This document shows, piece after piece, positions 1,200-41,500 of a stretch of DNA of 64,000 nucleotides. Source of the DNA: Owenia fusiformis. Lineage: Eukaryota; Annelida; Polychaeta; Sabellida; Oweniidae. A program made the position numbers and the translations under genes. The stretch covers positions 31,416,024-31,480,023 of the forward strand of contig CAIIXF020000006.1 in assembly GCA_903813345.2 (NCBI GenBank), written 5' to 3'. The notes below the pieces were generated by a model. The model ran no database searches. It was not told the DNA's origin and saw nothing but the letters and a program-made list of their open reading frames with translations. Each line of letters starts with the position of its first letter. Within the stretch, counting starts at the first letter, position 1.

Positions 1200-3490
1200 T
1201 TTATGACATAGAAGCGAAATAGCCATATTTAATTTTAATGATGTTTGTTTAATTGTTGTTTGCCACTTTTCGACAATTGTCAAAATTTGGGGGTTTTGGG
1301 GAGGGGTACAATTAGGTTAAAAAATTCACCTGATTCAGACTATCCTTAAATGAGCACTGATTCACCCGAGAGCATAACTTTTTCAAAACATGTAAGTGTT
1401 ATTTTTGGACCACTCACATTAATGTTTCGTCTAATTTTCCCTCAGAGTTTCATCATCATTGTCCAAATCGTATGCCATATTTGTTGAGATATATGAATGT
1501 TCATTATTAAAATCTTGGCTTCATTTGCAGTTGGAAAGGATTCGGCATTAGGTGTTATAAGTCCCAGAGCACGATAAATAAAAAAATAACAACAAAATGA
1601 CATAGAACTGATAGATGTTTTCTCCTGTGCGTGTCAGCCTTGGTCTACCAAATTGCTATTCAGTAGGAAGAAACTCATTTTTCAGTTTCCATTTTAATTT
1701 CCTGACAAATAGGGCGATCATCCCAGGATTTTTTCTATGATCTATGTGTCGCCATAGCAACTTCTGTTTTAGAGAACAATAGAACAATAGAAAAGATTAC
1801 TTTACCATAATTTTAATCATCCCACATTGTAGACATATTAAGAATTAAAAATATGAAGAGAATGACAAAACCCCTTAAAACACATTTCTTAGGAAACAAA
1901 TAGTGTCGTATTCTTGTTACTATGGCAACAGAGTTTTTTCTTTTTGTCATTTTTGTCATACAGATTACCTATCATACCAGGACCAAATCCTGAAAATTTG
2001 AATTCAGTATCTTCATTAGTATCTTAGATATATAGGTTTATTATAGTGTCCCCTGCAGATTTTATCGGATTATATAAGGAAAATGCTCTGAAGAGGGTTG
2101 CCCAAGGATGCCACTTAACAGTTCTGGTATTTTTGAGGTCCCAACCCTCTATTCATGGGAATAGTTAACCATTGTAAAGCTACTCATGGTTAACTGACAG
2201 AATTGATTGTATCTTCAACTAAGAAGACAATAAAATGTTAAAACCAGAAGAAAACCACACCAACTTTCTTCTATTTACCAGGGGTAGGGCACTATAAAGT
2301 CATATTAAAATTACAAAATAGTACTTCATCACTATAATAGATGTATTACAATATCACACATACCTTGGGAATGTTGTTAGAATACTACTTTGAGCTGTTT
2401 AAGTTATCATATTTTGCTTGAAGCTACAAATATAAAATAAGCAAGAAAAAATGACAAAAATTGCATATTTTTTTCTAATTAATTGTATTTTTCCGAAACC
2501 AACAAAGATATCAACCTATAACTTTAGGGTAGTATTCATCTCTGTACTAACAATGTATGCTGTAGAACTTAGAACAATGGTTTATATATCCTTTGAGTTA
2601 TGAACTAATATTATAGTACCCCCTAAAATAATTTCACAGGGGGGTAAAAACGCTAAAATTCAGTGTCGTGACCACCCCGTTGAGCTGTCATCTTTTAATA
2701 TCTTTATCAGCATGAAAAACTGATCCAGAAAAAATAGGTCTGTTGCTTTTTCTAAAAAATGCCTCAAAAACCCTATCCCTTGAGATATTCTGAAATTGGA
2801 ACCTGTCTATACTCCACTGAATATTATGTCAAACATATAATTTCCTCAAAGTATACAATTGATTCTAATGTAAGTCAATCACTGATGTCATTATTATGAA
2901 AGCCCTAGGCCAAATGAATGTATGTTGTTATAGTTCAACGGCCTCAATGGATTCCTTATTGTCAAAGGCAGTACAATTCTTGTATGTTTCCGATTTATGT
3001 TTTGCTATATGGGGGTTATTTCTGTCTGACATCACGTATTATTCAGAGCTGCTACAGGAAATGGACCAGTGAAGTAAAAGTAAGTTGACAACAATAATGA
3101 GAGAAAGGTGAAAGGAGCACTCTTCGTGAATTTTGCTGTCGTTAAAGTAATTGAAATATTGTTACTAATGAGGGTATTTACGACTCATTTACGTTGGAGT
3201 CTGCCATCATGTTATAAAGGGTAACAATTTTCAATGAATATAATCCATTCGATGACGTCGTTTACCATGCACCTCACCAGGTGGTCTATATAGTAATATA
3301 ATAGCTAAAAAGTAAAAATCCTCAGATGTGGTAATATAACATTATGATTTAAGAAAGGTATGAATACTTAAATAAAGAAAAAGTGGTGATTTAAACTTTT
3401 GAAAATCACCGTTGTTTCGCCCCGATCACGCTGCTGTACGCACGCACCCGGTCCATTATCGGTAGCCGTGCATATAGCATGGGTGTTATA
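1200..3490. other. No recognisable feature
   Basis: AT-rich sequence without a convincing ORF, exon pair, tandem repeat or inverted termini that I could find. Confidence 0.5.
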
Positions 3491-3492
3491 TA

Positions 3493-3866
3493 CAGGGTGT
3501 CAAATAAGTCCCATCCCTATGCTACAGTTGAAACCTCAACAGATGGAACCTGTGATATACCATTGGAAAGATCATCCAACGTTATATTCACCGCCACAGA
3601 GTATAATTTTTTTCATTTTGAGTTCTTTTGACTTTTCTGATGCTTGATTTTTAAAATCCTGCCAAATACGCTAAATTGCCACGGTCCATAGGTCAACTGT
3701 CACCACAATTGATACAATGTAGCAATTCGTGACATTGATTGACATGTATTAAATATATGCCAATTAACGAAACTTTGGATATCCTTCCAAATTATATACC
3801 ACAAATGGACCATATATTGTGGTTTTGGCTGTAAAGAGGGGGAGGTGGGACTTATTTGACAACCTG
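3493..3866. mobile_element. 374-bp MITE, Tc1/mariner type, TA target duplication
   Basis: The element begins CAGGGTGTCAAATAAGTCCC and ends with its near-exact inverse (GGGACTTATTTGACAACCTG). TA occurs directly outside both ends (3491-3492 and 3867-3868). The arms stay similar for about 100 bp, for example ACCATTGGAAAGATCATCC against ATTTGGAAGGATATCC. Small ORFs on both strands here are translations of the arms. It lies at the left edge of the satellite array. Confidence 0.7.
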
Positions 3867-3868
3867 TA

Positions 3869-6230
3869 GTGTTATTAATTTTATAAAGTGGTGACACCAT
3901 AAATGGTGGCATCATATTACGTGTCATTAAAGTGATGACACCATTAACCATGGCATTTGAAAGAGTTATCAAAGTGATGACACCATTCATGATGGCAGTT
4001 TAATGTGTTATTTAAGTGATGACACCATTATTGATGGCATACAAATATGTTATTTAAGTGATGACATTATAACGTGTTATTTAAGTGATGACACCATAAT
4101 GATCGCATTTGAGTGTGTTATTAAAGTGATGACATCATTTTTGATGGCAGTTTAATGTGTTATTTAAGTGACGACACCATTATTGATGGCATATGAATAT
4201 GTTATTTACGTGATAACATTAGAACGAGTTATTTAAGTGATGACACCATTAATGATCGCATTTGAGTGTGTTATTAAAGTGATGACATCATTAATGATGG
4301 CAGTTTAATGTGTTATTATTTAAGTGGTGACATTATAACGAATTATTTAAGTGATGACATTATAACGAGTTATTTAAGTGATGACACCATTAATGATCGC
4401 ATTTGAGTGTGTTATTAAAGTGATGACATCATTAATGATGGCAGTTTAATGTGTTATTTAAGTGATGACACCATTATCGATGGCATATGAATATGTTATT
4501 TAAGTGATGACATTATAACGAGTTATTTAAGTGATGACACCATTAATGATCTCATTTGAGTGTGTTATTAAAGTGATGACATCATTAATAATGGCAGTTT
4601 AATGTGTTATTTAAGTGATGACACCATTATTGATGACATATGAATATGTTGTTTAAGTGATGACATTATAACGAGTTATTTAAGTGATGACACCATTAAT
4701 GATCGCATTTGAGTGTGTTATTAAAGTGATGACATCATTAATGATCGCATTTGAATATGTTATTTAAGTGATGACATTATAACGTGTTATTTAAGTGATG
4801 ACACCATTAATGATCGCATTTGAATGTGTTATTAAAGTGATGACATCATTAATGATGGCAGCCTATTGTGTTATTTAAGTGATGACACCATTAATGATCG
4901 CATTTGAGTGTGTTATTAAAGTGATGACATCATTAATGATGGCATTTTAATGTATTATTTAAGTGATGACACCATTATTGGTGGCATACAAATATGTTAT
5001 TTAAGTGATGACATTATAAAGAGTTATCTAAGTGATGACACCATTAATGATCGCATTTGAGTGTGTTATTAAAGTGATGACATCATTTTTGATGGCAGTT
5101 TAATGTGTTATTTAAGTGACGACACCATTATTGATGGCATATGAATATGTTATTTACGTGATAACATTAGAACGAGTTATTTAAGTGATGACACCATTAA
5201 TGATCGCATTTGAGTGTGTTATTAAAGTGATGACATCATTAATGATGGCAGTTTAATGTGTTATTATTTAAGTGGTGACATTATAACGAGTTATTTAAGT
5301 GATGACATTATAACGAGTTATTTAAGTGATGACACCATTAATGATCGCATTTGAGTGTGTTATTAAAGTGACGACATCATTAATGATGGCAGTTTAATGT
5401 GTTATTTAAGTGATGACACCATTATCGATGGCATATGAATATGTTATTTAAGTGATGACATTATAACGAGTTATTTAAGTGATGACACCATTAATGATCG
5501 CATTTGAGGGTGTTATTAAAGTGATGACATCATTAATGATGGCAGTTTCATGTGTCATTTAAGTATTGACATGGCTTTATGACGTGTTATTTAAGTGATG
5601 ACACCATTAATGATCGCATTTGAGTGTGTTATTAAAGTGATGACATCATTAATGATGGCAGTTTAATGTGTTATTTAAGTGATGACACCATTATCGATGG
5701 CATATGAATATGTTATTTAAGTGATGACATTATAACGAGTTATTTAAGTGATGACACCATTAATGATCGCATTTGAGTGTGTTATTAAATTGATGACACC
5801 ATTAATGATGGCAGTTTAATGTGTCATTTAAGTAATGACATGGCTTTATGACGTGTTATTTAAGTGATGACACCATTAATGATTGCATTTGAATGTGTTA
5901 TTGAAGAGATTACATCGTAATGACGGTATTATAGCATATCATTAAAGTTATTCCATTCATGATGGGATTTTAACGTGTTATTAAAGCTATGTCACTAGTG
6001 CCATGAATGATAACATAACGGTTTATTTCATGACATTGAAAATCTCTATTTTCACTACCCTTAGTTCGTGACATATATCACTTAACGTGAAATCAAAGTG
6101 ATGTCACCATCAATTGTGGCATTGTTATTAAAGTGAAGACACCATTTATGACAGCATTTTAACGTGTTATTGATGGCAGTATAATGCTTTATTATTTGAG
6201 TGATGACACAGCTAGTGAAACATGTTTTGT
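3869..6230. repeat. Satellite array, ~38-bp units with higher-order structure
   Basis: About sixty tandem units of the type TTATTTAAGTGATGACACC + ATTAATGATGGCATTTGA fill the region. Variants alternate in a fixed order (GACACCATTAATGATCGC, GACATCATTAATGATGGCAG, GACATTATAACGAG). A block from about 4030 to 4580 recurs about 948 bp further right with few differences, including rare variants (CATTTTTGATGG, GTGATAACATTAGAACG), which shows recent block duplication. Many units contain the 14-bp palindrome CATCATTAATGATG. Units decay after about 5900. A remnant of the same family appears at 19746-19885, on the far side of the inserted LINE. Confidence 0.92.
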
Positions 6231-6239
6231 TTATGTTTA

Positions 6240-7827
6240 AGTTTATTTATTATTTAAAATACACACAAAATACAATATATGAACTGGGTGACACTTTAAA
6301 AAGTGTATATTCCCAATATAAGCCAAAAATAATACATGTGTGTTGTCATACCTATTAAATGCAGTTGGGGACCTGCCTATGTATTCATCTATTTGAACGA
6401 AAGTATTGATTTGTCACATCATAATAGACCAAATGAGATAACGTTTTGGCATAATGTCAAAAGTGTTCTTGAATACAATATATACCAATGAGTGCAAATA
6501 TACTTACAATGTAGTTTGAACATTATTTGGAACAGAGGCAAAATCAGGGGGTACAGCAGAGCTTAAAGGAAATATAAGTCAGTTTAGTAAAAAAAACAAA
6601 AAAAACACAAAAACAACATAACTGTATGTGATTGAAATATTACCATATGGGTCAGATATACTGAGCAATCATATTGAGAGCAGTTTTGTTCTTCGAAGAA
6701 ACCAAAAGAGCATCCAAAAGAGCATACACGAGAGAAAGCATGATAAGGGCAATGGGTGATAAAGAGACAGCAAAATATCAATTGAGTTAGTATGTTTCCA
6801 AAAATAGTTTTTTAGTTCTCTTTTAAATGAATAGAGGCTTTTTATTTGTTTAAGTCTTTCTGGTAATTTGTTCCAAAGCTGAGGTATTGAAATAGATATA
6901 GATGATTTACCATAATTTGTGCGAAATTTAGGTTGATCATAGGTCATTCTATTTCTGGTGTTATAAGGATTTCTTTCATGAACTGTTGTAAAGAGACGAG
7001 GGTATATACTCCTATAGTTATCTAAGTCATTTTTCCATTTGAACATAAATATACATTTCGCTTGCTTATTAATGTCAAAAATAGTAGTAAGTTTTAACAT
7101 TTCAAAAAGTGGAGAGGAATGTGCTCTATAGTCACTATTTGTTGCAAGACGTACAAACCTTTTCTGGGACAAGTGAAGTGGATTTATTGATGTAGGATTT
7201 GCATCCCCCCAAACAAGATTACCATATATTAGATACGAATAGATCAAAGAGTAGTAAATACGTGTAAACCCTTGAATGTTTAGAATATGCTTAATCTTGT
7301 ACAAAATACCTATGGTCCTTGAAATTTTCATATTAACTGAAGATATGTGATCTTTCCATGTCAAATGTTGGTCAATTATAATGCCTAAAAAACTGATCTT
7401 TGAAACTTGTTCGAGTTTATTGTCATTGAGATATATTTTGAAGTTACTTGGATCATAGTGCTACTGTCTTGATGTAAAAATGATGTATTTGGTTTTAGAA
7501 ATGTTTATAGAAAGTCTATTAGCCACCAGCCATTCTTCAATATGTTTTAGCTCGGTGTTCAATATATCATTGAGTTCATTTAGATTTTTGCCATTTATCA
7601 ATATATTAGTGTCATCTGCAAAAAGAACAAAAAACAATATTGGAGATGATAAGTATGTGTCATTAATGTAAACAATGAAGAAAAGGGGACCTAGTATGGA
7701 GCCTTGATGGATTCCACAGTTAATGGTATTTGGCTCAGAAATAACATCTTTGTATGAAGTTCTTTGAATTCTATTTTTGAAATAACTTTTTACCAAATCA
7801 AGTGATACGCCACGTATACCATAAAAA
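6240..7827 (-). mobile_element. Non-LTR retrotransposon (LINE), C-terminal half of RT ORF and 3' end
   Basis: Translated on the minus strand, this gives the second half of a reverse transcriptase. After the insertion point come YGIRGVSLDLVKSYF, motif B (CGIHQGSILGPLFFIVYIND), the catalytic FADD box (LFADDTNILI) and a C-terminal domain running through TWKDHISSVN, YNTRNRMTYDQ and PQLWNKLPE. The frame is open except for one TAG at 7463-7461. About 400 bp of presumed 3' UTR follows toward 6240; the exact 3' end is uncertain. The first half lies at 19109-19745, separated by the 11.3-kb element at 7828-19108. The three-base joint at the junction restores LYFYGIRG exactly. With a stop here and two frameshifts in the other half, the copy is dead. 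The subfamily (Jockey/CR1-like group) is not resolved. Confidence 0.85.
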
Positions 7828-7850
7828 ACAGGTTCCAGTGAAGTTTGACA
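7828..7850 (+). repeat. Left terminal inverted repeat of the 11.3-kb element
   Basis: ACAGGTTCCAGTG is followed by one mismatch, then AGTTTG, one mismatch and CA. It pairs with 19086-19108 and has the target duplication TAAAAA immediately outside at 7822-7827. Confidence 0.8.
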
Positions 7851-7941
7851 TTTTTCCAGTTTGACAAAAGTATTAAACAAAACTGTTTTATAGGTGTTTT
7901 TACTCATGACATATTTATTCATTGCATCTTCTTACATTAAT

Positions 7942-8534
7942 TCAGGCACATGTATTTCAGAGGGAAACAAGTTGTCTGAATTCAGACAGAAACATTCTTT
8001 AGCTAAACATATAGTGTATCTTATACTTGAATATTCTGTGTCTGAATTCAGGCAGCGACTTTCTAATCTATAAGAAACCTAAATTTTCACTGTCTGAATT
8101 CAGACACAACTTGATAATAGTAAGATGAATTTGTTTATCTCTTGTGTCTGAATTCAGACACAGGCTTTTCCATATTAGAAAACAGAAGCTGATTTCAACT
8201 GTCTGAATTCAGACACAATTTGTTAATAGTAAGATGAATTTGTTAATCGCTTGTGTCTGAATTCAGACACGGGCTTTTCCATATTAGAAAACAGAAGCTG
8301 ATTTCAACTGTCTGAATTCAGACACAATTTGTTAATAGTAAGATGAATTTGTTGAACTTATCTGTTGTGTCTGAATTCAGACATTGGAAATCAGTATCAA
8401 TTTTCTCAGATTGAAGTCTTGTCTGAATTCAGACACATAAACAAATTCATCTCACTATGAGACTGTGTCTGAATTCAGACATAGGCTTTTCCATGTTAGA
8501 AAACTGATTCAACTGTCTGAATTCAGACATGGAC
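7942..8534. repeat. Left subterminal array of 16-bp palindromes
   Basis: About eleven copies of TGTCTGAATTCAGACA (or one-base variants) lie about 53 bp apart, near 7973, 8041, 8090, 8143, 8201, 8255, 8310, 8366, 8419, 8466 and 8514. Two spacer types alternate, one containing AGTAAGATGAATTTGTT and the other GGCTTTTCCATATTAGAAAA, so the array has grown by duplication of a ~110-bp dimer. The palindrome is extended to GTGTCTGAATTCAGACAC in several copies. Symmetry and repetition suggest binding sites for a dimeric protein; that is inference. Confidence 0.9.
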
Positions 8535-8559
8535 TGATCATAGTGAGGTGAACCCTAAT

Positions 8560-9340
8560 TAAGTTATGCAATGTTGCTTATGACCACATTATCCATACTT
8601 TTCTGACAAAAATGGACATAATATACTCTAATTCACACCAAAGTAATTAGAAAATAACAATTTCTTTTTATATATGGTTCTCAGTGACAGTTCTCATGGT
8701 TTAATCTACTGTACATCATTACAAAATGTATTTGTTCAACCTTAAGTTCATCAAATTATATGTCTGACTACTTTAATAATATATTTCAGCACATATTTCT
8801 GAGTATACTCACTACATACAGAAAAAGTTGTCAAGTTATTCCATTCCATTTCATTTGATTTTTCATTTATTTGATCCTTTTAACTTAGAGATGTTAACGT
8901 ACATTCTGCATCACATAATTGAAGCTGATTTAAAATTGATCAACTATTTACAATCAAATTATTTTGTTAATAACTATTATGATACTAGTATAGTAAATAT
9001 ATAGTAAATATAAAAGGTATAATATACAATGTACAACCCAAGGGAAAAGTGAACCATGTCACTTTCACTTCATTTGATAGATCTTTGACAATATGTAGCT
9101 GTCAAAATACTAGATTAATAGTATTTATCTGTGTGTCTCGAATTGTGGCGGGGTGTCAATGTTTTTTTTAAAATGTTGTTGTAAGTTGATCTTATTTCTG
9201 ATTTGTTGTGGGATTCAATTAATTGGACTGTGTTAAAGCGAATACTAAACTTCAATTTTAAGTTCCCTGTCAATAGTCATGGTACAGTAGATGCCATTGG
9301 ATATAAAGTTTGCCATGTTCAATTAATATCCCGTTAAAAG
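8560..9340. other. Interior of the 11.3-kb element, no recognised feature
   Basis: AT-rich sequence between the left palindrome array and the first coding-like exon. No repeat or ORF of note was seen. Confidence 0.4.
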
Positions 9341-9346
9341 TAAATT

Positions 9347-10086
9347 TTAATGTCCAATTTCCACAACCAAACCAATCTTCACTGCTTCACCAGGACTCAT
9401 TCTATATCCTACTATGTATTCCACCTCAAACTTCTGTCTTATTTGGAAGGGTCTCTGTTTCCCCCCTGATTTAATGGACATTTGCTGGTTACAACCTGAA
9501 ATAGTATAGATTAAACAGTTTTATCTATGTTATCATGAAGACTCAACTTGACGGATGGACAGACAAAAGCAGACAGACACTCCTAATAATAAAGAAAAAT
9601 AACAAAATAAGCGGGAAAATAACACACTTCAGATTTCATATGGAGTGTAATGGAATATACCCTTTTGACCATTATTGTGTTTTGATTCAATGTAATGCTC
9701 ATACCTTTTTTCTGCAGACCTCGACTTTGTTCTCTCAATAGTGCTGTTAGGATTAATCGCTTTCTTTTTTGACTCATGTGTATGTCCTTCTCATATAGCC
9801 ATGAGAATTTGACCGCATTTTCTGAAATATTAATTATCAGTCTATCAATGTCAAGTAAGAATAAGTGAATTAATTAAGTAGAATTTAAAACAAACAAAAT
9901 TTTTTTTTAAATTAAATATACATTTTGATGATGGTGTTACATACTTACAATGCAAACATAGATTCCTTCCAATATATGCAAACTCTCTTCGTTATATTCA
10001 CTGACTTTTGTCACTTTGTATAGCTCGGCAAGTCGATATTCAAATGATATTGGCCCTGTTTCAAATGTTGGTACCTTAGTTGCCAT
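9347..10086 (-). CDS. Tentative three-exon gene inside the 11.3-kb element, unknown function
   Basis: Three exon-like pieces follow one another on the minus strand. Piece 1 (10086-9949) starts MATKVPTFETGPISFEYRLA and ends ILEGIYVCI at donor gtaagt. Piece 2 (9821-9705) follows acceptor tttcag and reads NAVKFSWLYEKDIHMSQKRK to SRGLQKK, ending at donor gtatga. Piece 3 (9495-9347) follows acceptor tttcag and reads CNQQMSIKSGGKQRPFQI to VVEIGH, then a stop. Pieces 2 and 3 join in phase. Pieces 1 and 2 are out of phase by one base, so either a lesion, another exon or an independent first exon is involved. Together they would encode about 135 residues, basic in the middle, with no membrane segment and no family I recognise. 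Correct splice sites plus open frames argue for a former gene carried by the element. Confidence 0.4.
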
Positions 10087-10352
10087 CTCATATTTTCCAA
10101 GTTAGTTTTGCATTGTGTTTTCTACCACGTAAATGCATCTAGGAGTGTTGTCTTCATAAGATCTACATCTAAAACCTTCTCTTTTCTAGTATTAGCTGTT
10201 CTGCAAAATAAACAGTGCTAACATATTATTTGACCTCACAGACTTGACGTTTTTGTCTAATACAAGATTAAAAAACCATAAAAGTCATTATAATATTTTG
10301 AATTCTCATATTAAGCTGTCACCCAAGGAGGATTGGAAGCCAGGGTTCCAAC

Positions 10353-11046
10353 TCAATATTCTTTAATCTCCAATCGATGCGGTAGTTTCTGATCCTGCCT
10401 GTATATTTCTACGGCTGCCAGGAGAATGGCTGATATTCTTGATTGAATTTTGTATTCAATCATAACATGGCTATGTGATACCCATATATGAAACAGAATA
10501 TTGATTGGCGTCACTGGGAGGAAATCCTCCTTGGCTGTCACATTAGGATCTGCCTAAAAAACAGATGACTGGGTAGCCGGTGACTCAGGGTGCCTAATGT
10601 GTCTAGCAGGGTTACCAACTTTCAAAGTTGGACATTTTCCCCTAATATAGTAGCAATTTGACATGATAGCCCCAGCCTCCTAAGTGTAAACTATACTGTT
10701 CTATATTTAAACATTATCTTTTCATCAAAAACCTACCAGAGACCAAGCACTTTTTGAATAATCGACTATTTTATCAATATCAGAATACCCGGAAGGCATA
10801 AAATCAAATTCTAGCCCTGCTAAGAATGTTACCGAGTCACCTGGCAACCCGGTTATCCAGTCACCCCAATTTTACACAAAACCTTTGATTCTCCTCTCAA
10901 GCTTAACCATCTTCTAAATAATTTTTACATCTTTCTATCCTACTCTGGACTTAAAGTTATGATAAATTGACTTACCAAATTCACAATTCCCTGTTGATGT
11001 ATCTGCCATACTGTACATAAGCATGTTCCAATAATCCAGTGTTTAA
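10353..11046 (-). CDS. Tentative C-terminal exons of an unknown gene inside the 11.3-kb element
   Basis: The 3' piece (10553-10353) follows acceptor ttttttag and is open for 66 codons. It reads ADPNVTAKEDFLPVTPINIL, then VSHSHVMIEYKIQSRISAIL and QDQKLPHRLEIKEY, then a stop. An upstream piece (11046-10976) reads KHWIIGTCLCTVWQIHQQG then IVNL at donor gtaagt and joins it in phase 0. Its acceptor is weak in pyrimidines. Between them sits a MITE-like inverted repeat (10565-10870). The family is not recognised. It lies just upstream of the pieces at 10086-9347 on the same strand, so both could belong to one transcription unit or to two genes in tandem. Confidence 0.35.
10565..10870. repeat. Short inverted-repeat element (possible MITE)
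   Basis: The left end has TGACTGGGTAGCCGGTGACTC and, further in, TCTAGCAGGGTTAC. The inverse of the right end has TGACTGGATAACCGGG, GGTGACTCGG and TTAGCAGGGCTAG in the same order. The arms match with small gaps. No clear target duplication was found. Confidence 0.4.
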
Positions 11047-11360
11047 CTGTTTAATTCAGATCTCTTTCTTCAAAATGTTAATAATTTCTAATATTGTCTG
11101 TTAAACCTGTTTCCGCCAAAAATTTGAATGGGTGTAACTTAAATCTCTTCTTTCATTGGATAGTGTAAAGTTTAGGTGAGTCTAATATTTCAAAAAGGGT
11201 ACACAGTGATTCAATGGACTGATCTGAAAGCTTATTCCCTAAGTGCTACTAACTGTACCTGTATGCAATATACACCACAAAAGTAACATTAACATCTTCA
11301 AACAGAATAATTTCCATTGGACAATTGATTATACAGTATACAAAAGGAAAATAACAAAAG

Positions 11361-14300
11361 CATGACAGTTGGAGAAATCCTAGGTGCTGGAAATTTGAAG
11401 AAGATTCTAGGATTTATTTCCAATATGTTGATGTTAGCAGGGGTAAGTTATTTTTATTAAGATAGTTTTAAATACTTTTTCAAAAATTACATTTAGTTTA
11501 AGAAAATCCAACTAATCTTAAATATAAAAAGAGATATTGAAGATTAGAATAATGCGAATTATGTGAGCTTCCCCCTTAAACCAATTAGAACTTTTAAACC
11601 AAGAATGAATCACAGCCCCTTCAATGAATGATATTGGTTTATTTAAAACTTATGAATTTGAAAACTTTAGATGAATAAATCACTGGCCCTTCAGAGGGGA
11701 AAAATAGTACAATGATGGTGGTCTTTCCTAACATGGACTCAACCACCAATGATAGGGTTAAATTACTGTTGCTGCAAAATGTTGATTCTATAAAGCTATT
11801 TATAATGTACATTGTTTTTTGTAGGAACAAAGCCCTACATGCATACATAAAATATATTGATTGTGAAGAAGAGTCTGCTACCAACATATGGATAAAGGTG
11901 AGTAATTAATTCTAACATGTTTGTTTGCCTTGTTTTCTTTAAAACAATTTTTCCTGGAATTTTGAAACAATATTCAACATTTTTCCCTTTCCTTTGGGGC
12001 CCACATAGTTCGTATTAAAGGATAGTACCTTGTGAAATTGACTTCTTACTTTATATTCATTATAAGTTCTAGTTCAGTGTTCCATCTGTACTTTGTTGCA
12101 TTAGGCCATATGATGTAGATACTTTGTTTTATGTCCTGCTTTAAAGTCCAAATAACACAATGGCATAAGGAAAACAAACATTAACACTTGTTTGCTGGGA
12201 AATGTATATGATAAATTTCTATATAAAAGGGTATGGTATTCCTATTTGCAGTGATTTCAAATACACATTCAACTAATCATGTACATTGGTACATGTGGCA
12301 TGCAGTATGTTTCAAAGATATTCATAGAAATAAAATGCTCAATTAACTATTCAATTGATTATAATTAATCCAACCTTATTGATAATTAACAAATCAATTA
12401 TATTTTAATATCAATCTCAGTGAGGTAATATCCAAAAATATATATATTAAAGCAGGTAATTTTATGATGAAGTAAATGGGTCTTCACATGCAGTATTACC
12501 CTGAACAGATTTGTCATTAAAATTCAGAGTATACCCTCACAAAAAGATAAAAACAGATGATTAAATAAAGGAAAGGGAAAGCAACAGAAATTAACGAAAC
12601 AGAATAATTACTTATAGTATGAACCTAAAAGTTAATTCATCACTTTTGTTTATTTTTTAGTGAATATTTGTTGAACATCTTTTAAGGGCAAATTCTTTGA
12701 AATTGAGATGCATATCTAATAACCACAAATTGCACAAGCATTTACACTGCCATATAATTTAATTTGATATCGACTACAATGTTTAACTCCTTGATATTAT
12801 GACAAATTCCATCTGAAATTCACAAAACCACTTAGTGATTTCTTATATAATATAGCACAAACGAGATACTTATCCATTTCTATAGCATAACATCTTTACA
12901 CAAAAGCTAGGTTTTTCAATAGGTTGAGATCACTCAGTTGTGAACCATATAATAAAATCAACTTCTAGATTGAGTTTCATGATTTAAGTTTGGAGAAATC
13001 CGATGAAGTTGAATTTGGTTATATTGCTTCAAATGTTCATAAAAATGTGAGCAATACAAAGAGAATGCTGTGTTTGGAAATAAATATATCACAAACATAT
13101 GTTTTTTAAAAATAAATGATTACATCATTTCTCATTAAAATTCTCCCAGATTCTCCTATTCTGAAGTCCAATAAACATGACAGTTACCACTTAAATGGAT
13201 CAAACTTTCCAATGACTGATTTTGACATTATCTATTAATGAGTTGATCTTATAGGATGGACTGTTGGTACTGTCTCCTAAAATAAATAAAATACCACCCT
13301 TTATTATCCAGTGATAGACCACCTTTAAGTAGTTTCTTCAAAATGGGAATGTTAACCATATCAAAACTAATTTGATTGTGAATTTCTTTCTAATAAAATG
13401 TGTCAAATACAGAATCCAGGCTAGTTTAACCTTGTTAGAATACAGCATGTTTCAAATGCAATTCAGGGCCAAGCTTGATACTAAATGAATATAGGGTAAT
13501 ATGACCATCCTGATGCTAAAGTGTCAGCAAAAGCTCAAAATTCATTTGATGTATTGCAAATATTAGAAAAAATGTTCAAAAACATCAAAGAAGAAAATGG
13601 ATAAACAACCAATAGGAAAAATAAATATGAAATCAATTTTTTAAAACATCAAACAATGAAAGTAAAAAAACACAGCAGATGCTCATCAAGTTTCAACCTC
13701 AATCTAAAGAGGGCTCCACAAGAGGGGGTAGTGGGGCCGCTTTTGTCACTTTTAAGATTTCAAAATTCTCACTTTGTCACATTTAAAATTTACTTGTCAG
13801 ATTCGTTCCTTTTTAGTCAGTCAAAGTATTTACATGTAATGCACTAAATTGTCTGTTATGTTACATTGTTTGATTGCTGGTTAGAATAAGTCATCTTACT
13901 AGCATCAATTTACATTCAGAACGAATTATCTATTTTTGTCACTCTCAAAACACTTGTCAGTCTGATAAATGTGCAAAATTGTCACTTGCAAGGATTGATT
14001 GTCACATTTGTTCATTTTTAAGTACCAAAAAGTCCCATTTTTAGAGGCCAGGTCGCCTTATCACATACCCCTTGGGGAGCCCCCTAAAGCATTGTTATAT
14101 TCCTTGGGCTATGAGGTAAGTTATGTGTTAGCATGCCACCAAGAGAATATTAATTGTCAAGATTTGGGTGATAATTATTGATCAAAGTATCAAAGACAAA
14201 GTGTCAATTTTTCTAGGGAATACTAAGTGTTTCGATATGGGTGAAAGACTAAAAGATAGTAATTGAGATGCAACAAATATAATTGTAATCACAGATACTC

Positions 14301-16366
14301 TTATCAATTTGGCTCAAAATTATGTAATGACATGCGAGTTCCTCAAATACAAAGTTAAATTATAAAGTTGATCAAAGTTTAAGATACATTGTGGACTATT
14401 GTGACTATTATTAAATTGTGAAAATACTTAGTAACACCCAGTTTTAAAGAAACACTTTTTATGTTATAATGTTAAAGCTTTAAAACAATGAAGCCACTAT
14501 GTATTTGGTTTATAACAAGATTCAAGGACACAGCTTATTTATGCTTCCTTGCAAATGCTGATACCAAAGTTCTGGTACCAGGAACATGTCAAATTAATCA
14601 ACCTACTTAGGTGATGTGATCACCAACTTGTCAACACTAAACGTTTTCCATGACCTTAAAACATTAATCATGGAAACCGTGAATTTAAATAAGGTCATTT
14701 ATATTTTTAATAAAGGGAATATCTCAAACTTTTGAGAAAAGGAAGGTTATTTCATATTGAAAAGGAAGGTTATTTAGATTGAACATATATGACACCACCC
14801 CTTTTAAAATATATCCCATGTTAGTTGTGTTACATCCACACCTCAAGCATCTGATACACCGATACAAGTGGGTTAAATTTCAAAATGTTAATTTTAGCCC
14901 TCCCCAAGTAAAATAAACATAAACATTATGTAATGTTGTGATAAGGGGGAGAGGGTTATATCATACTAAGTAAGCTTTAGAGAAATGATTGATCTATTTC
15001 ATTGCATGAAAACCAGTGTTTCCTAAGTGACATTTTTGTGGTTTTGAGAAAATGGGTTTAAAGTTGAAACATGAACCATTTATGATACAAAGCTGATTTT
15101 ATACTATCTCATGTCATTGTAAGGTTTATGTATATGATTTCAAAACTATTATATTTGCAGTGGTAAGAAAGGAAATTGTGGCAGAAGATTTTTCAGCTGT
15201 TTTGCACATTTTGACATTTACGTTGACTCATTGTATCAAATTGATCAATTCATTGATTTTGCAGTTTGGAAAATAAAACTTATTGCATCATTGAATTCCC
15301 TTTCAAGTTTATAATGTTGAAGTTTTCAATCAACTGTTTTAATTGTAATTAATAATTTAATTAATGCCATATATCACAGTCATTGTTTTTTTAGTACATT
15401 GTTTTTGTCATTATACCATTATACTGTACATTAAACATTATTGCAATATTAGCATATTAGTCTAATACTGATTATTTGTTGAAAGGGTTGACTCAGAATT
15501 TTAATGCAGAGTAGGCCAGTTTGTAAGTTGTATGTGATGGAACCTTTGAATATATTATATTTTCAACCTACATGCATCCTTCATTTCCAAAATACACTTA
15601 TGTAATACATTAATTAAACATGTAATTAAACATGTTAATTGTCTCGATATCCTGTATTGGCACTCGACTCCGTCTCTTGCCAATAAAGAATTTCTCGAGC
15701 AGAATATATACTGTATTGGACTTCAAATCATTCAATAACTTATAATATTATCATTTCATTATATCGTGCCATCAAAAGAAATGGTACATTTTAGAGTGTG
15801 ATACTCTGGTGCCGCTTTCAATATATCTTACTTTTAGTGTTATTGGACTTCAAAGAGAAGTGAAGGTTATCCGCAAATAATATACCCATTGCATGGAATA
15901 TGTTATTTTCTTTGGTATAACAAAATATTTGGGCTAAGAAATAATTTGTGAAGCTTTCTAAATGTTTTTTCATGAAAAATAGCATGCTCCACTAAGCTGG
16001 ACAAATCTTTGACCACCTGTGACTTACCAACCATATTTCATGACTACCAGCCTGATATAGTCACAATGTTACATGACTTTAAATATCAAGTAGTTATTTC
16101 CTAAAATGACAGGGTTGCAGCTTTATTTGACCACCCTGTACAGCAATATTACTTAATATTATTATATTACTTAAATAATATTATAGTTTTCTTTTGTTTA
16201 ATTCCAGGTGATGTTTGAGACCAAAAAAAACGGCGAGCGGTTTATGTTGGCTATTTCCAAAGCAACAACATGTATGCATGTCAATACAAGGATTGCCATT
16301 GCGCATGTTCATTTGTTGCACAATACAACACAGAAAAAGCAAGCAAGATCAAAGATCATTAATTGA
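11361..16366 (+). CDS. Scattered exon-like pieces on the plus strand, one weakly PR/SET-like
   Basis: Three pieces have splice-like borders. 11361-11440 starts ATG, encodes MTVGEILGAGNLKKILGFIS plus seven residues and ends at gtaagt. 11825-11897 follows acceptor ttttttgtag, encodes NKALHAYIKYIDCEEESATN then IWIK and ends at gtgagt. 16208-16366 follows attccag and begins VMFETKKNGERFMLAISKA, ending in a stop. The second and third join in phase; the first and second do not. The order Y-I-D-x4-S-x2-N-x-W-x-K-V across the second junction recalls the end of a PR (PRDM/SET-like) domain, whose usual form is D-x4-S-x2-N-W-M-R-Y-V. One extra residue and the long gap make this weak. It may be a decayed captured gene or chance. 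Confidence 0.2.
11900..13700. other. Interior of the 11.3-kb element, no recognised feature
   Basis: AT-rich sequence without exon-like ORFs or repeats that I could identify. Confidence 0.4.
13710..14085. mobile_element. 376-bp MITE-like insertion within the 11.3-kb element
   Basis: The left end reads AGGGCTCCACAAGAGGGGGT and the inverse of the right end AGGGGGCTCCCCAAGGGGTA. AAAG lies just outside both ends (13706-13709 and 14086-14089), a possible 4-bp duplication. The interior repeats the word TTGTCAC at short intervals. Two short plus-strand ORFs overlap the arms and are not taken as genes. Confidence 0.55.
14090..16200. other. Interior of the 11.3-kb element, no recognised feature
   Basis: AT-rich sequence; neither a coding exon nor a tandem array was seen. 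Confidence 0.4.
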
Positions 16367-16629
16367 GCCATTAGAGCCAAATACGACACCAATCTCGAAA
16401 AAGAAGCTTAAAGATGAAATTGGGGAAGATAGCATCTCTCTATATAGGAATGAACACTCTCACTGTTGAGTCAAAGCCAGTGATATGGTGGGATCAATTT
16501 ATGTGGCAAACGTCAAAGCCATTGTAAATTCCTTGAAGATCGTTAAATTAGAACTTGGGCTAGTATAATGATGAAGCTAATATATTATAATGTATTATGA
16601 AAGAACTAGAGTATTACTCATATTTACAT

Positions 16630-18060
16630 GCCTAACCATCAACAACGTACAGTGACAAAATATACCGCTGTTCATTTTATATTGTACAGTGTCACTAAAA
16701 ACTGATGATGCAGGTGTGTTGTAGGTTTTCAAAAATTAATTTTGGGCATACTCGAAAGATTTCAATTTCATGTTTAATTTTGTATGCATTCGACTTTTAG
16801 CTTTCTGATTACATTAAAAGATTTAAAAGCAATGCTCGATTTTTCCGTAGTTAATCTACCAACAAAAATTGATCGGTTGGAAAATGTTGGGTTTTTCACA
16901 TTTCCTTTGATCATTTTTTCTCCTGTCGCCTAAGAGTGTCATTTATTTATGAGAATATGTTTCTCTAAACTACACAATTTAAGATGAGTGAAGATTTGAT
17001 AAATATTATGTATTGGGTGTAATTTTAAAAAATCAGAAGAGTAGTTGTCAACTCCACTGAAGGGTGTCAGTGTAAATGAAATTCACGAGATGTTATATTG
17101 AACAATGCAATAATTCAATTTCAAAATCCAGCATTTGATGAGTAACAAGTTAGGTTTAAGGAACATGTTCAATTATCCTCAATACAGATGTTCTAAAGTT
17201 AAGGTAAATTTGATTTTTAAATCTTTTTGAATGTTATTTCATTTTATAAAAGTATTGGTGTGGTGATTAATATGTGACCATGGGATGTTAGCCTCTAACC
17301 TCTTGATCACATGACATCTGTACTTTAACGTAATAAGAAACACTTTTATGAATTTTAATTATCTTAAGAAGTTCATAGAGAGATCTATACTAGCTAGTCG
17401 AACATGACTTTTTAAAACCTCTTTATGCTATATCTGGAAAGTGTTGAGGTTCAATACTATGGTTCAATCGAGTTTAAGTAATACTGTGATTGTTAAGTTT
17501 CAGTTTTAAATCAATCTGATCCCCCTGCCCATTAGTGTTATTAAAAATATGTTGTCAGGGTTAACTGTGAATTCAGATATGTAAGTTCATTGGGAAACGT
17601 ACATCAAGATGACAAGGCACATTTGTAATTTTTTGATTTTTATTATTTTAACTAAAACATGAATATTTATTAAATCTTCAACCGACCTTAATTGTGTAAC
17701 TTAGGGAAACATATTCTCATAAATATAATTGACACTCTTAGGTGACAGGGGGAAAAATGATCAAAGTAAATGTGAAAAACCCAACATTTTCCAACCGATC
17801 ATTGTTTGCGGTTAGATTTACTATGAAAAAAATCGAGCATTGCTCGAAAATCTTTTAACGTAATCAGAAAGCTAATGGTTTTCCTAATAGAATACACACA
17901 AAATTAAACATGAAATTCTTTATGCATTCCTCAGATTAATTTTTAAAACCTACATCACATCTTTTGCTTCATATCAGTTAGAATAGTGACACTGCAAATC
18001 AAAAGTGTACGGGGGTATATTTTGTCACTGTACATTGTCGATGATCAGGTGTGATTTAAA
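16630..18060. repeat. 1.4-kb hairpin (long imperfect inverted repeat) in the 11.3-kb element
   Basis: Left-arm segments such as GATCGGTTGGAAAATGTTGG (about 16870), CCTAAGAGTGTCA and TTATGAGAATATGTTTC recur inverted in the right arm at about 17800, 17740 and 17710. Outer segments GTACAGTGACAAAATATACC (about 16648) and its inverse (about 18015) also pair. Arms are roughly 80-85% similar by eye, with the fold near 17300. It may be a nested foldback transposon or a structural part of the larger element. Confidence 0.65.
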
Positions 18061-18424
18061 ATAAAAAAGTTTAAATGATAAATCTTCTGCCTGTTGTACC
18101 ATCAATTACAGTATTTTCTAATGAAGTATTTTCTGTAATGCTAAAGATTACTTGATCTGTACATGATGAACTACTTTTTAAAAATATCTTGTCATAAAAT
18201 TTAAAATTGTACTTATATAGAATTGCAATTAAAACATTATATAAGACATGTTAATTGCAATCCGATGAAAATTTCTGTTGCCAAACTTATTAATGGAAGT
18301 GAAATTGCTTTTAACACACAAATGTTGACCCAATGAATTTGAATTCAAACATCAATTTCGATTATAAAACAGAAGTGAAAACAATAATTTCTGAATCCTT
18401 ACCTGTAATGTCAGTTTACTAGAA

Positions 18425-18866
18425 TGTCTGAATTCAGGCACCTTATTTCAGTTTCATAGATTTTTGTCTAAATTCAGGCACCTCATCCAAGCTTAGCAAG
18501 TTGTCTGAATTCAGACACTATATTTCAGTTTTATAGATTGTTGTCTGAATTCAGGCACCTCATCCAAGCTTAGCAAAGTGTCTGAATTCAGACACTATAT
18601 TTCAGTTTTATGGAATGTTGTCTGAATTCAGGTACCTCACCCAAGCTTAGCGAGTTGTCTGAATTCAGACACCATATTTCAGTTTTATGGAATGTTGTCT
18701 GAATTCTTATTTTAGTTTAAGAGAATCTTGTCTGAATTCATGCACCAAAATCTCAGATATAAGTCTTTTTTTGAATTAAAAATGTGTGGGCATGTCTGAA
18801 TTCAGACACATATTTTCCCATTCTAAGAGTTGCATAGAGTAAAACATCTGCCTGAATTCAGACACT
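18425..18866. repeat. Right subterminal array of 16-bp palindromes
   Basis: About twelve copies of TGTCTGAATTCAGACA or close variants (often ...CAGGCACC) lie about 39 bp apart from 18425 to 18866. Spacers alternate between TATATTTCAGTTTTATAG and CTCATCCAAGCTTAGCAA, forming ~78-bp dimers. The spacers and spacing are unlike those of the left array; only the palindrome is shared. Confidence 0.9.
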
Positions 18867-19085
18867 TCATATATCTACACAAAAAGATTGTAAATATGTT
18901 GCTGATGTCTGTACATAACATAAATATACAGTACCTAGAAATATATATCTTTATTTTTATACTTTGCTGGTTGTTTATAATCTTTTCTCATTCAAAAAAC
19001 TTCTCCAACACCTAAAGAATACATTAATTGTCAAATATATTTCTTGATTTATATTAATAATTCAAACTTTTGTCACCTATGGAAT

Positions 19086-19108
19086 TGCCAAACTACACTG
19101 GAACCTGT
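19086..19108 (-). repeat. Right terminal inverted repeat of the 11.3-kb element
   Basis: On the minus strand it reads ACAGGTTCCAGTGTAGTTTG followed by GCA, pairing with 7828-7850. The second TAAAAA target copy follows at 19109-19114. Confidence 0.8.
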
Positions 19109-19745
19109 TAAAAATATAATTTTTGAAAAAGAATTTCATGGTCGATAGTGTCAAATGCCTTGGAAAAATCTAAAAATAGGCCAATTGAGTATTCTCCGAG
19201 ATCAATAGATTTTCTTATTTTTCAACAAAATTTAGAACAGCCATAAAAGTTGACTTCTTTTCTCTAAATCCAAATTGATTCGAATATAAAATTTCCATTT
19301 TGTCAATAAAAGTAGAAAATCTCCTATGCATTAATTTTTCAAGTAGTTTGGAGAATACAAGAAGGACAGAAATGGGGCGATAATTTGTAAATAATTTGTC
19401 ATTATCTTTTTTATATATTGGAATGACTTTGGCGGCTTTTAAATGATCTGGAAATATACCATTGCTAAACGATAGATTAAATATATGCAAAAGGGGCTGT
19501 AAGAGTGCGTTACCACACTCCTTTATGACAAACGGCTTAAAGTCATCAAGACCAGCAGCTGAATTTTTCAGATTATTTATTTCAGTTTGAATTTCATCAT
19601 GAGATATTGGATTAAGAAATAGAGTAGATTTTGTTTGACCTAATTTCTGCATGAAATCAAGTGGGTTCTTTTTTGATTTGGGGATTTTTGAAGCAAGATT
19701 CTCACCTACAGTTGAAAAAAGTTGTTAAATTGATTTGCAATTTGC
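19109..19745 (-). mobile_element. LINE, N-terminal half of the RT ORF
   Basis: Minus-strand translation gives the fingers and first palm motifs of a non-LTR reverse transcriptase: GENLASKIPKSKKNPLDFM, then NSAAGLDDFKPFVIKECGN, VIPIYKKDNDKLFTNYRPIS, NQFGFREKKS, and motif A in [19 protein letters not shown]. It stops at LYF, where the 11.3-kb element is inserted. The frame is broken by one missing base in an A run near 19214 and one in a T run near 19720. No endonuclease domain is present, so the LINE copy is 5'-truncated and abuts satellite sequence at about 19745. Confidence 0.85.
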
Positions 19746-19885
19746 TGTTTGTAATGTGTTGTTAATGATGGCATTTTAACGTCTTATTAAATTGATGAAT
19801 CCAGAATTAGTGGCATACTGGCATAATAACGTAGAATTAAAATAAAATGATGACCCCATTTTTGATGACATTATGAGACCAGAAG
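19746..19885. repeat. Remnant of the 3.9-6.2 kb satellite
   Basis: It contains GTGTTGTTAATGATGGCATT, TTAAATTGATGA and AAAATGATGACCCCATTTTTG, matching diverged units of the array that ends at about 6230. Its place next to the truncated 5' end of the LINE shows the LINE was inserted into this satellite. Confidence 0.65.
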
Positions 19886-20031
19886 CATTAATATTATTGT
19901 TTGTCCTTTACATGTTTGAGTGGCCATTTCCCAGGGGCCATTTTTAATGATAGTTGGGTAACATAAAAATTATTTGATAATTTCGACTATCACAGATCCA
20001 ATTATTAAAATGGTTCAATTTGTCGCAAGTA

Positions 20032-20908
20032 CACTCCCCTCCATAAGTTTGGCAACCTTTTTTCCCCCATTGAACTACGTGTTAAAGCCTCTTTACCTTT
20101 GAATTTTTATTTACTTAGCCTGTGATGAAAATACTTATACTATTGATGAAAACATAATTTGACTTTAATTCCAATACCTCCAAATTTTCTCAATTTTTTT
20201 CCTCAATTACAATGGGTCGAAAATTGATGATAAATTTGATGAATTTTTGAAAATTGACATTCCCATGTTAACCAATGAGAAATGGTAGGTTTGCCGCAAG
20301 TCATATGACAGAATATCCATCCATCCGAGTCCTTGCAAAAAATACGAGTTAGGCAGGCAATTGAATTTTCTAACTTTATTTAACAAAAAATTGATATGTT
20401 TCTTCAGGTTCAACAAAGTTATAGGGCTTTAAAGTCAAAATTGTTTTTCAAAAAACCTCCCCCATTGAAATAACACAGGAGGCGAAAAATTATTTTCAAA
20501 AATGACTTTGAAGCGCTGTAACTTTAATATTCATCAAATAAACTAAACACTTAGTGTTCAAAAAAGTTAGACAATTCAATTTCCTATATAAAAATATTTT
20601 TTGCTGAATCTTTTACTGAAAAGATATCCTGATTTCTGATTTGCCCCGAACCCTCCATTTCCCATTGGATTACATGGGAATGACGATTTTCAAAAATTCA
20701 TCAAATTTATCATCAATTTTCGACCTATTGTAATTGAGGAAAAAAAATTGAGAAAATTTGGAGGTATTGGAAATAAAGTCAAGTTACGTTTCCATCAATA
20801 TCATAAGTTATTTCATCGCCGGTTAAGTAAATAAAAATTCAAACGTAAAGAGGCTTTAACACGTAGTTCAATGGGGGAAAAAGGTTGCCAAACTTATGGA
20901 GGGGACTG
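20032..20908. mobile_element. 877-bp MITE with ~255-bp arms, Tc1/mariner type, TA duplication
   Basis: The left end is CACTCCCCTCCATAAGTTTG and the inverse of the right end CAGTCCCCTCCATAAGTTTG. TA is outside both ends (20030-20031 and 20909-20910). The arms remain about 90% similar for 255 bp, including TTTGGCAACC and AAAATTGATGATAAATTTGA. The unpaired middle (about 20290-20650) has no transposase ORF. Long arms with TA duplication fit a non-autonomous Tc1/mariner element. Confidence 0.8.
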
Positions 20909-38551: not shown

Positions 38552-41500
38552 ATGGCGCTTCCGGCTGAGCAAAAAGTTAGAAAATTCGCATTAATTTCCA
38601 GAATTGCAGTCTTCGTCGTACAGGTAGGGCCATAAGATTGTGTCACTCTATTGATTATTAATATTGGCCCGTATATATTTGGGTTTGAAAGTCTCAAACA
38701 ACGTCTAACTACGAATGACGTCAAAATTAAAATTGGGCCAAGAGTTAGAATTTCCTAAGATTTTCGACATCTAAAAAGTCACTCGACTTTTTTGCAAAAA
38801 AACTTCCAAAAAGTAACAGTCACATGAATTCATATTGTCGTACTTACAAAATGATCCACCGCCTAACTTATGCACCATTGAACTCGGTAATATTGTATTA
38901 ATTACGGTATATTCCCATAGAAAACTGGGCTTGCTTTTCAACATTTCAAGCGAAAATTCTCTACGGAGCTTTTGTTTTCTGACTTAATTTCTTCCAAGAA
39001 ATCGGTGACGTGATAGGTTCAGTTCATCTTATTTCGAAAGGGGTGTCATCTGTTTAGAATATTTATTTTCATCTTGTCCAGTCCTACAGTTGGGGACATA
39101 AATAAATGACAGGTGGATTTGCTGAAGTGAGGATTTCCCATGTTAAAAATAAGAGAATTTACAAGAGGCCATACATCAGTGGATGAGATTATACAAAATG
39201 TAAAATATACAAATTTTAAGGGATATATATCTAGACAATATTGGAAATTATGGGCTTTCAGACCACCATAATTAGGAAATGGTGATCGAAAATCGACCTG
39301 TCATTTATTTTTGTCCCCAACTGTATATACAATCTGCCCTTATCTTTTTCGCTTGTAAAACCGCGTAGTAATGATGAAATTATGGAATAGATTCTCTGAG
39401 AGTGGCGACATGTCTTCATCTCTACCATTTTGCGTTTGACACCCCTCGTTTTGGGCGAGTCCGAGTAAACCGCACATCCGGGTGATTAGAAAAGGGACAT
39501 TTTTAAAAAATTGAGCGGCAACAAAGATACTTCTGGTCAAACTGAGTTTATGACGAAACTTATGAAAGAATCAATAAAAGGTAAGTGGTATACATTAGGC
39601 GGATGCCAAAAATTAAACGTGGAGCCAATTAATTTGAAACTTCAGAATGCTTTCTATGATTCAAAATCACAAAAAAGTCGAGTGACTTTTTAGATGTCGA
39701 AAATCTTAGTTTCATTACATGTAGATCATGGGCTTTCAAATAGAAGGGTAGGCAACTTCCCATATTTCATACATAAGCATTGCTTGATCTGTTCGAGCAG
39801 AAAACGCCATATTGGAATTTGGCAGAAAAAACATTCACTCGACTCACTTACAAGTCTTGATCAAAAAGGAAGAACTTCAGCACTCCAATACTTGCACGGA
39901 GGGATGATAACTAAGTATGACATAGTTAAAGAACAAAAGTAAGCCGCTGATCAACTTAATTCGTGTTTCAAAGGTCACTATTATTCAGCTGTCCATTTCT
40001 CTGTTGGAGAGCCATAAGTTTCAAAATCTAACATGGCTCTCGAAGTGAGTAATCCTTCCCCACATTGTCTACATCTTCCAGTTTTGCACAAGTGCACTTA
40101 TGTGCCTAGAAAAGACTGGTGAGAAGATTTGTTTTATAAAATGTATAAAAAACGAGAGAATTTTCTTGTTTTTTATTCATTTGATCAAAACATTCTTCTT
40201 TACATTCTCTTCTAGGTACATCAGTGCACTCGTTGTACAATTGTACAAACGTGAGAGATGTAGACATTGTGGAGGAGTGATTCAAATTTGAAAAATAACA
40301 TGTGACCCACTTGAGGGTTGCATCAAAATTCCGAACATGCACCCTGACCTAAATGTAAGGTTTGAATTATATTTTATTCAAGTTCTACCATTGTTAAACC
40401 ATATATCTACTTTAAATGGGATAATTAGCCTTTTGCAGATTATTGATGTAGATGTTGAGTTAGCTTGCAATCTTGAAGCTGAATACTGAGAATTCAGCTG
40501 CAAGTCTACCTATGTTATTTTTCTAAGATAATTTTGTCACCACATGTTTTAAGCTATTGTTTGTTAATATACCCACCCATGTGGCTATAATCTTACCAAT
40601 GCTCTCAAGACCATAGCTTATTATGCTTGAATAGAATCATTAATTTGCTATTCATGTATCCTGTCTTTGTCTACATTAGTTCAGACTCCGAAGTCAATTG
40701 TTATTGTAATGTTAACAGATATATGTATTGACCTACATTGAGTTTAGTGAATTTTATGGAAGGAGTACCCTTGTAAAGGTAAGAATTTCTCATCTTTTAC
40801 AAAAAATAAGCAGTTTTGACAAGTTTTTTTTCTAAAGTTGACAATCTCAGGTATGACAACACTTTTGGGAGAATTTATCCAACCATTCTGGAGAAAATTT
40901 TGTGCAACACTTTGAATAATTTTCTGAAGAATCAACATTGGCCATGTTGGATCTGAACATTTAGGTTTACATTTACGTTTTCTAGTTAGAGCAGTTCTGT
41001 ATGTCCATAACAAGAAATTGAATTTATGCTTCCAGGTTGTTGCGAATGCTGTCATTCCTGACCACAATGCTGGGGTCTTCAATCCACCAGCAGAACAAGA
41101 CAAAACCATTTTGGATGATATCATAACATTCCTATTTGCTGGCTATAGAAGGTGGGACTCTGAGTACTTTCTACACATAGCAGAACATGGATACACCTAC
41201 GAGAACTGTCTGGCTTTCTTTCCTCTCTTTCCATTAACAGTGAGAGTAGTAGCTAACAGTTTACTATACCCGCTCCAGTGGTTTGCCACCTATAGCAATG
41301 TACTATTGGTGTCAGCTGTATTTATAAACCTCTACTGTTTTGTGAAATCAGCAGAGATGTTGTATCATTTAGGGAAGGCCATATTGAATCATGAATCCCT
41401 GGCATACAAAGCATGCCTTATGTACTGTATCAACCCTGCAAGCGTATTCTTCTCAGTTGCATACTCAGAATCAATGTTTGCATGGATAACATTCACAGGA

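Follow-up and report, generated by a model that had tools for sequence, protein, structure and literature searches.

An 11.3-kb insert in a LINE reverse transcriptase of Owenia fusiformis is very probably a non-autonomous derivative of giant DNA transposons

What kind of element has split a reverse transcriptase gene in Owenia fusiformis, and to which mobile elements is it related? The question arises in a stretch of 64,000 nt (contig CAIIXF020000006.1 of assembly GCA_903813345.2, positions 31,416,024–31,480,023 of the forward strand; hereafter the window), in which an insert of 11,283 bp separates the two halves of the reverse transcriptase of a long interspersed nuclear element (LINE). We conclude that the insert is very probably a long non-autonomous deletion derivative of giant, mostly 28–36 kb, cut-and-paste DNA transposons. 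Both halves of the reverse transcriptase are encoded on the minus strand, the downstream half at 6669–7822, as determined from the open reading frames and from translation of the joined flanks, and the upstream half at 19114–19724. When the flanks were joined without the element and without one copy of AAAA, an open reverse transcriptase stretch was obtained, with FADDTN in the same frame across the junction. Because the joined flanks read in one frame, the two halves represent a single interrupted copy and not different LINE copies. The initial annotation, which had postulated a terminal inverted repeat (TIR) element inserted into one reverse transcriptase reading frame, was borne out in this respect. 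The upstream half changes frame near position 19215, which indicates a LINE copy that is itself broken.

The element spans positions 7827–19109 and is non-coding. On both sides it is bordered by the target site duplication AAAA (7823–7826 and 19110–19113, plus strand), as read from the letters beside the element ends. The predicted inverted ends were found as TIRs of 27 nt: the left TIR (7827–7853, plus strand) carries AACAGGTTCCAGTG, a perfect stretch of 14 bp, and is 89% complementary to the right TIR (19083–19109, minus strand), which carries CACTGGAACCTGTT. The duplication had previously been described as the 6-bp sequence TAAAAA, placing the limits at 7822–19114. However, a 6-bp match occurred in only 3 of the 17 other complete end pairs identified in the genome, compared to 16 of 17 for a 4-bp match. 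Moreover, all 17 pairs have an A beside ACAGG at the left end and a T at the right end, and since they are constant we assigned both letters to the element. Given these letters and the 4-bp duplication, the limits had to be corrected to 7827–19109, and the termini of the window element, as of the other complete pairs of its family, are AACAGG...CCTGTT. Subterminal palindrome arrays had also been claimed, and two arrays of the 16-bp palindrome TGTCTGAATTCAGACA were indeed present, one at 7973–8529 (10 exact copies, 11 at up to two mismatches) and one at 18425–18864 (4 exact copies, 10 at up to two mismatches). In the 498-Mb genome this palindrome occurs at 270 sites, compared to none for the reversed control.

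With the end pattern as query (up to two mismatches), 31 forward and 27 reverse sites were obtained in the whole genome; the reversed control gave 4 and 2. Pairing by position resulted in 18 complete inverted end pairs including that of the window, with spacings of 10,301 to 33,421 bp, so that loci with both ends do exist elsewhere. Three unpaired ends were counted at up to one mismatch, one of which belongs to a copy whose ends are damaged and forms its right end, C1:37462696 (C1, C2, C5, C6, and C9 denote contigs of the genome; the window is located on C6). Of the 17 other pairs, twelve were read in pieces. Ten of them have most of the interior of the window element in common, one is a 33.4-kb relative, and the twelfth, C2:15787735, has the opposite orientation and harbors this interior according to the genome search. 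Six copies, compared base by base to the window and to one another, differed by 1.3–7.6% at aligned positions and fell into two subfamilies. At least one longer copy, C5:19596948, owes its extra length to a nested element. Within this derivative, a 1,373-aa open frame was observed (piece L057, 4534–8652), which we take to be a Gypsy-like polyprotein.

The four letters adjoining the element were identical left and right in 17 of the 18 pairs of the window family, window included, whereas pairing left and right letters of different copies gave a match in 6 of 306 cases. The length of the duplication is, thus, constant across copies, while its sequence varied (AAAA, CATT, AGCA, GTTG, TTCG, and others). 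Taken together with two further families described below, exact 4-bp duplications occurred in 28 of 30 true pairs and in 16 of 870 between-copy pairings. Short TIRs together with a duplication of fixed length are hallmarks of class II cut-and-paste elements, whose autonomous members encode a DDE/D transposase. Two derivative copies on C5, both of 12,178 bp, agree letter for letter at their termini over the 51 and 48 bp compared, but their duplications differ (TTAT and TACT) and their flanks are unlike (equal at 17 of 70 and at 17 of 69 positions). This combination of equal length, different duplications, and unlike flanks fits movement of the derivative itself.

The 33.4-kb relative (C6:23578930–23612350) has the end and the palindrome of the window family and is bordered by a GTTG duplication. 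Between the palindrome arrays, it shares ten blocks with the window element at 69.7–85.3% identity (nine of them below 79%), which are colinear apart from one that is inverted. Its minus strand matches the Pfam domain DUF7869 (PF25273) in one exon with an E value of 7.2e-28 and in further exons, and its plus strand carries an exon of a ParB-like gene. A search with this whole exon returned the relative itself and four weak matches in other derivative copies, each within the first 67 residues. No match in the window element was obtained for two regions of the relative, 1792–8533, which contains the DUF7869 exons, and the stretch between about 20120 and the right array, nor for the ParB-like core.

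In the genome, DUF7869 gave 95 exon-level matches that represent 43 loci; no match was obtained in 14 control genomes of unspecified kind. Two further families, with TIRs and palindromes of their own, were mapped. The end of family A, AAGTCCTGACTATTTRATAAAG, was located by comparing two copies in a group of near-identical DUF7869 loci. Eleven end pairs were found, 20.6–35.6 kb apart save one of 72.5 kb, along with three unpaired ends. DUF7869 lies inside ten of the eleven pairs and a ParB-like match inside nine of these ten, the nine elements with both genes measuring 27.7–35.6 kb. Duplications of 4 bp occurred in eight of the nine pairs checked. Two family A copies are 99.0–99.6% identical across 5,870, 1,978, and 965 bp, indicating recent movement. 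The family B end, AACAGGGTGCAAAAC, has its six terminal letters in common with the window family. Here, three pairs (28.1–31.1 kb) were found in addition to three exact but unpaired ends, and all three pairs have 4-bp duplications and contain both a DUF7869 and a ParB-like match. For families A and B together, 11 of 12 pairs checked had the 4-bp duplication.

Each family has its own palindrome. That of family A, TATAGAAATTTCTATA, occurs at 281 sites in the genome, compared to 3 for the control, and one copy that was read through in pieces carries 11 palindromes close to its left end and 8 close to its right. In family B, one end was read, and GTGTC-N4-GACAC repeats lie close to it. When sequence pieces of the three families were compared, each palindrome was confined to its own family. 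For the window family, 185 of the 270 palindrome sites lie in the 13 copies read, and the sites among the matches listed, at least 50, are all inside mapped copies. Two groups of family A palindromes outside mapped pairs were also observed among the matches listed. At C2:2103123–2118224 (about 15 kb), the palindromes flank a 576-aa uninterrupted frame containing DUF7869, possibly a smaller, intron-poor relative, and at C1:25432805–25440171 four palindromes extend across 7 kb in which no ends were mapped.

Several features point to DUF7869 as a transposase. The motifs DNC.RENK and GHTHEDID were present at all six loci read, and DGMDQ.K at all three loci with that stretch covered. Each of the three ordered motifs is preceded by a hydrophobic, strand-like stretch (IIDGMDQ; LQADNCWRENKN; LSFLIVGHTHEDID), and the three acidic motifs follow one another in a DDE-like order. 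In RNase H-like transposases, the acidic motifs come after hydrophobic strands. We infer from this pattern that the DUF7869 protein is a DDE-type transposase, which would suggest a job for a Pfam domain of unknown function. Profile comparison to the PDB gave eight weak and unrelated matches (E of 0.12 or more), and a literature search in one collection retrieved no paper naming DUF7869.

The partner gene was found at 22 loci when several queries were combined (21 matches with the family A exon as query). Sixteen of these loci pair with a DUF7869 locus within 40 kb, always on opposite strands (16 of 16); one pair belongs to the window family, nine to family A, and three to family B, while the ends of three are unmapped. 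In the coding relatives, the DUF7869 gene and the ParB-like exon are located on opposite strands and both face outward. The family B matches are weak (E of 0.024–0.042) yet lie inside all three elements on the expected strand. The label 'ParB-like' was initially our own assumption from the motif IDGNHRFAAAK / IGGNHTLAALK. When six aligned members were compared to PHROGs, four matched phrog_723, weakly when taken singly (best E of 0.011), and the other two matched phrog_1033, also weakly (E of 0.3 and 0.37); both groups are annotated 'ParB-like partition protein'. In Pfam, ParB was not matched by the six members, and single members gave weak unrelated matches, including DUF2606 (E of 0.011). 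No match was obtained in a PDB profile search with the alignment. The agreement of the weak PHROGs matches across six members of different families is suggestive of a ParB-like protein.

According to the model we favor, a putative DUF7869 transposase would be supplied in trans to derivatives such as that in the window, excise the element between AACAGG...CCTGTT, and insert it at cuts staggered by 4 bp. In the window copy, the cores of both the transposase and the ParB-like protein would be gone while ends and palindromes are retained, so that this copy could still be moved. Pseudomonas aeruginosa parS sites are described as 16-bp palindromes in the available part of one account (PMC9178275), and bacterial ParB is stated in another to load at parS and then to spread (PMC12704722, in part). 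The combination of a ParB-like protein with 16-bp palindromic sites resembles these bacterial systems; here, however, the proposed pair occurs within transposons of a eukaryote. By analogy, each family's ParB-like protein might bind its own palindrome (TGTCTGAATTCAGACA, TATAGAAATTTCTATA, or GTGTC-N4-GACAC), load and spread at the subterminal arrays, and bridge ends 30 kb apart for the DUF7869 transposase. We regard this part of the model as speculative and rather doubtful. If true, end bridging would account for the mobility of such large elements and of the 11-kb derivatives, and the family-specific arrays offer a simple, testable model for end pairing by very large DNA transposons. Alternatively, the palindromes could be bound by the transposase itself.

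A number of observations weigh against the derivation from such transposons. The seven window-family copies differ by just 1.3–7.6%, but the coding relative is only 69.7–85.3% identical to the window element in the shared interior blocks and may be too diverged to be the last mover of this family. No close autonomous partner of the window family was found, nor any DUF7869 match inside its other pairs. The family A pair at C2:24861461 (20.6 kb) has neither a DUF7869 nor a ParB-like match, and two pairs, C2:15787735 of the window family and C9:1336391 of family A, lack a 4-bp duplication. Furthermore, for 27 of the 43 DUF7869 loci no ParB-like match lies within 40 kb, and 6 of the 22 ParB-like loci lack a DUF7869 match; pairing of the two genes is not universal at the search sensitivity used. 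Finally, the transposase role of DUF7869 is based on motif pattern and association, and the coding relatives, known from exon-level frames, are not necessarily intact.

Sola1 elements generate 4-bp target duplications, as do the elements described here. The families might be known Sola1-type elements or derivatives of these, with DUF7869 as the Sola transposase under another name, a reading to which we give slightly less than an even chance. The same duplication length is stated for Sola2 in the available part of PMC3627910. The nearest described element, compared by description, is the 21.5-kb Sola1-1_Ec32 of the brown alga Ectocarpus, which is likewise giant and, as far as the available part of the account shows, has a transposase gene and a gene with a ParB-like domain on the opposite strand (PMC12477816). 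Its ParB-like protein, however, also has a DNA methyltransferase domain according to that part, whereas none was detected in the frames scanned here. In addition, the main text of this account does not contain the word 'subterminal', and palindrome arrays, as present in our families, are not mentioned in the part available. The 'unknown class' of the initial annotation is answered in part, since the genome harbors coding relatives that have DUF7869, with its DDE-like motif order, and a ParB-like exon, and membership in Sola is possible.

Since Sola1-1_Ec32 has a similar plan, as far as described (PMC12477816, in part), giant transposons were already known to carry ParB-like genes. Compared to the same part of that account, our elements add DUF7869, palindrome arrays specific to each family, and a host that is probably an animal, and no methyltransferase was detected in them. 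The combination of giant transposon and ParB-like partner known from algae is indicated here too, by at least three families in one genome. In the literature collection searched, no report of ParB-like genes in animal transposons was among the matches listed, and the main text of a 2025 survey of the ParB fold that includes eukaryotes contains no word beginning with 'transpos' (PMC12704722). The account of Sola1-1_Ec32 also reports giant families whose transposase genes are pseudogenised or lacking and which are presumably moved in trans (PMC12477816). The window family further resembles miniature inverted-repeat transposable elements, which are described in the available text as arising by internal deletion, being mobilised in trans by another element's transposase, and being classed by TIR and duplication (PMC5199201). 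At about 10–11 kb, however, the copies here far exceed the <800 bp given there.

The interior of the window copy bears on whether the 11-kb element could itself be autonomous and encode an unrecognised, intron-rich protein, which we consider most improbable. Exon-like pieces had been noted before, and they do overlap blocks 69.7–85.3% identical to the coding relative, including parts of the side with the DUF7869 gene and the start of the ParB-like exon. A minus-strand remnant at 9167–9529 is homologous to 1419–1791 of the relative, which has a 120-aa minus-strand frame there ('...VGYRMSP...'). Two blocks within 9688–10212, minus-strand exon candidates, correspond to 8534–8686 and 9478–9815. 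The middle part (10909–14757) comprises five short blocks that match 11.1–18.1 kb of the relative, one inverted, and two plus-strand blocks at 16183–16540 match 19754–20119, where the ParB-like exon region starts. A coding scan across seven copies gave weak and scattered signals, which we take as remnants. In favor of an autonomous element are a few short windows rich in synonymous changes, for example 10485–10550 (minus strand, 6 synonymous to 1 other) and 10917–11036 (minus strand, 18 to 4, with stops present). Against it, the median ratio of synonymous to non-synonymous changes was 0.28 across all 40-codon windows, the longest stop-free frame lying wholly within the element had 96 aa in the window copy and 157 aa in one copy among six others that were read in pieces, and the element lacks the relative's DUF7869 and ParB-like blocks. 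In agreement with the previous failure to recognise a transposase, integrase, or polymerase, the six frames of the window element had no Pfam match at E up to 1.

Nested sequences were also observed. A dispersed repeat fragment lies at 10323–10533; at least 18 other loci match about this stretch only (40 of 1,030 first-look candidates scored). The stretch at about 13710–14083 has no counterpart in the main-subfamily copies compared and is probably a later insertion. At 16631–18053 lies a pair of long inverted arms that match imperfectly (up to 126 nt, 83%) and are separated by about 0.6–1.3 kb; the pair is also found in the other copies compared and possibly represents an older nested foldback element.

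Polintons/Mavericks have 6-bp target duplications, PolB, and a retroviral-type integrase. An origin of the insert from such an element, or from another virus-derived element, after gene loss is suggested by its large size, its TIRs, and a duplication initially taken for one of 6 bp, but is extremely improbable: the duplication is 4 bp, the six frames of the window element contain no Pfam family, no polymerase, integrase, or capsid domain was detected in the pieces of the relatives scanned whole (L063 minus, L065 plus, and L094 plus), and among 28 pattern matches obtained in viral contigs with the DUF7869 alignment no relative was confirmed. KDZ/Zisupton elements, with 8-bp duplications and a KDZ transposase domain, are ruled out by the 4-bp duplication; the three minus-strand frames of L063 contained no KDZ domain, only DUF7869 and one weak SAM-like match. 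Kolobok and piggyBac, for which TTAA-specific duplications are given in the available part of PMC9587614, are ruled out since the duplications here varied.

Elsewhere in the window, a large tandem array with 27/42-bp units is located left of the LINE (3884–5915). A 287-aa frame on the minus strand (60385–61248) is presumably a mariner-like transposase. Frames of host genes were observed at 40928–42082 and 57245–57904, which we assume to resemble a GPI mannosyltransferase (PIGV) and the transcription factor SPT5, respectively.

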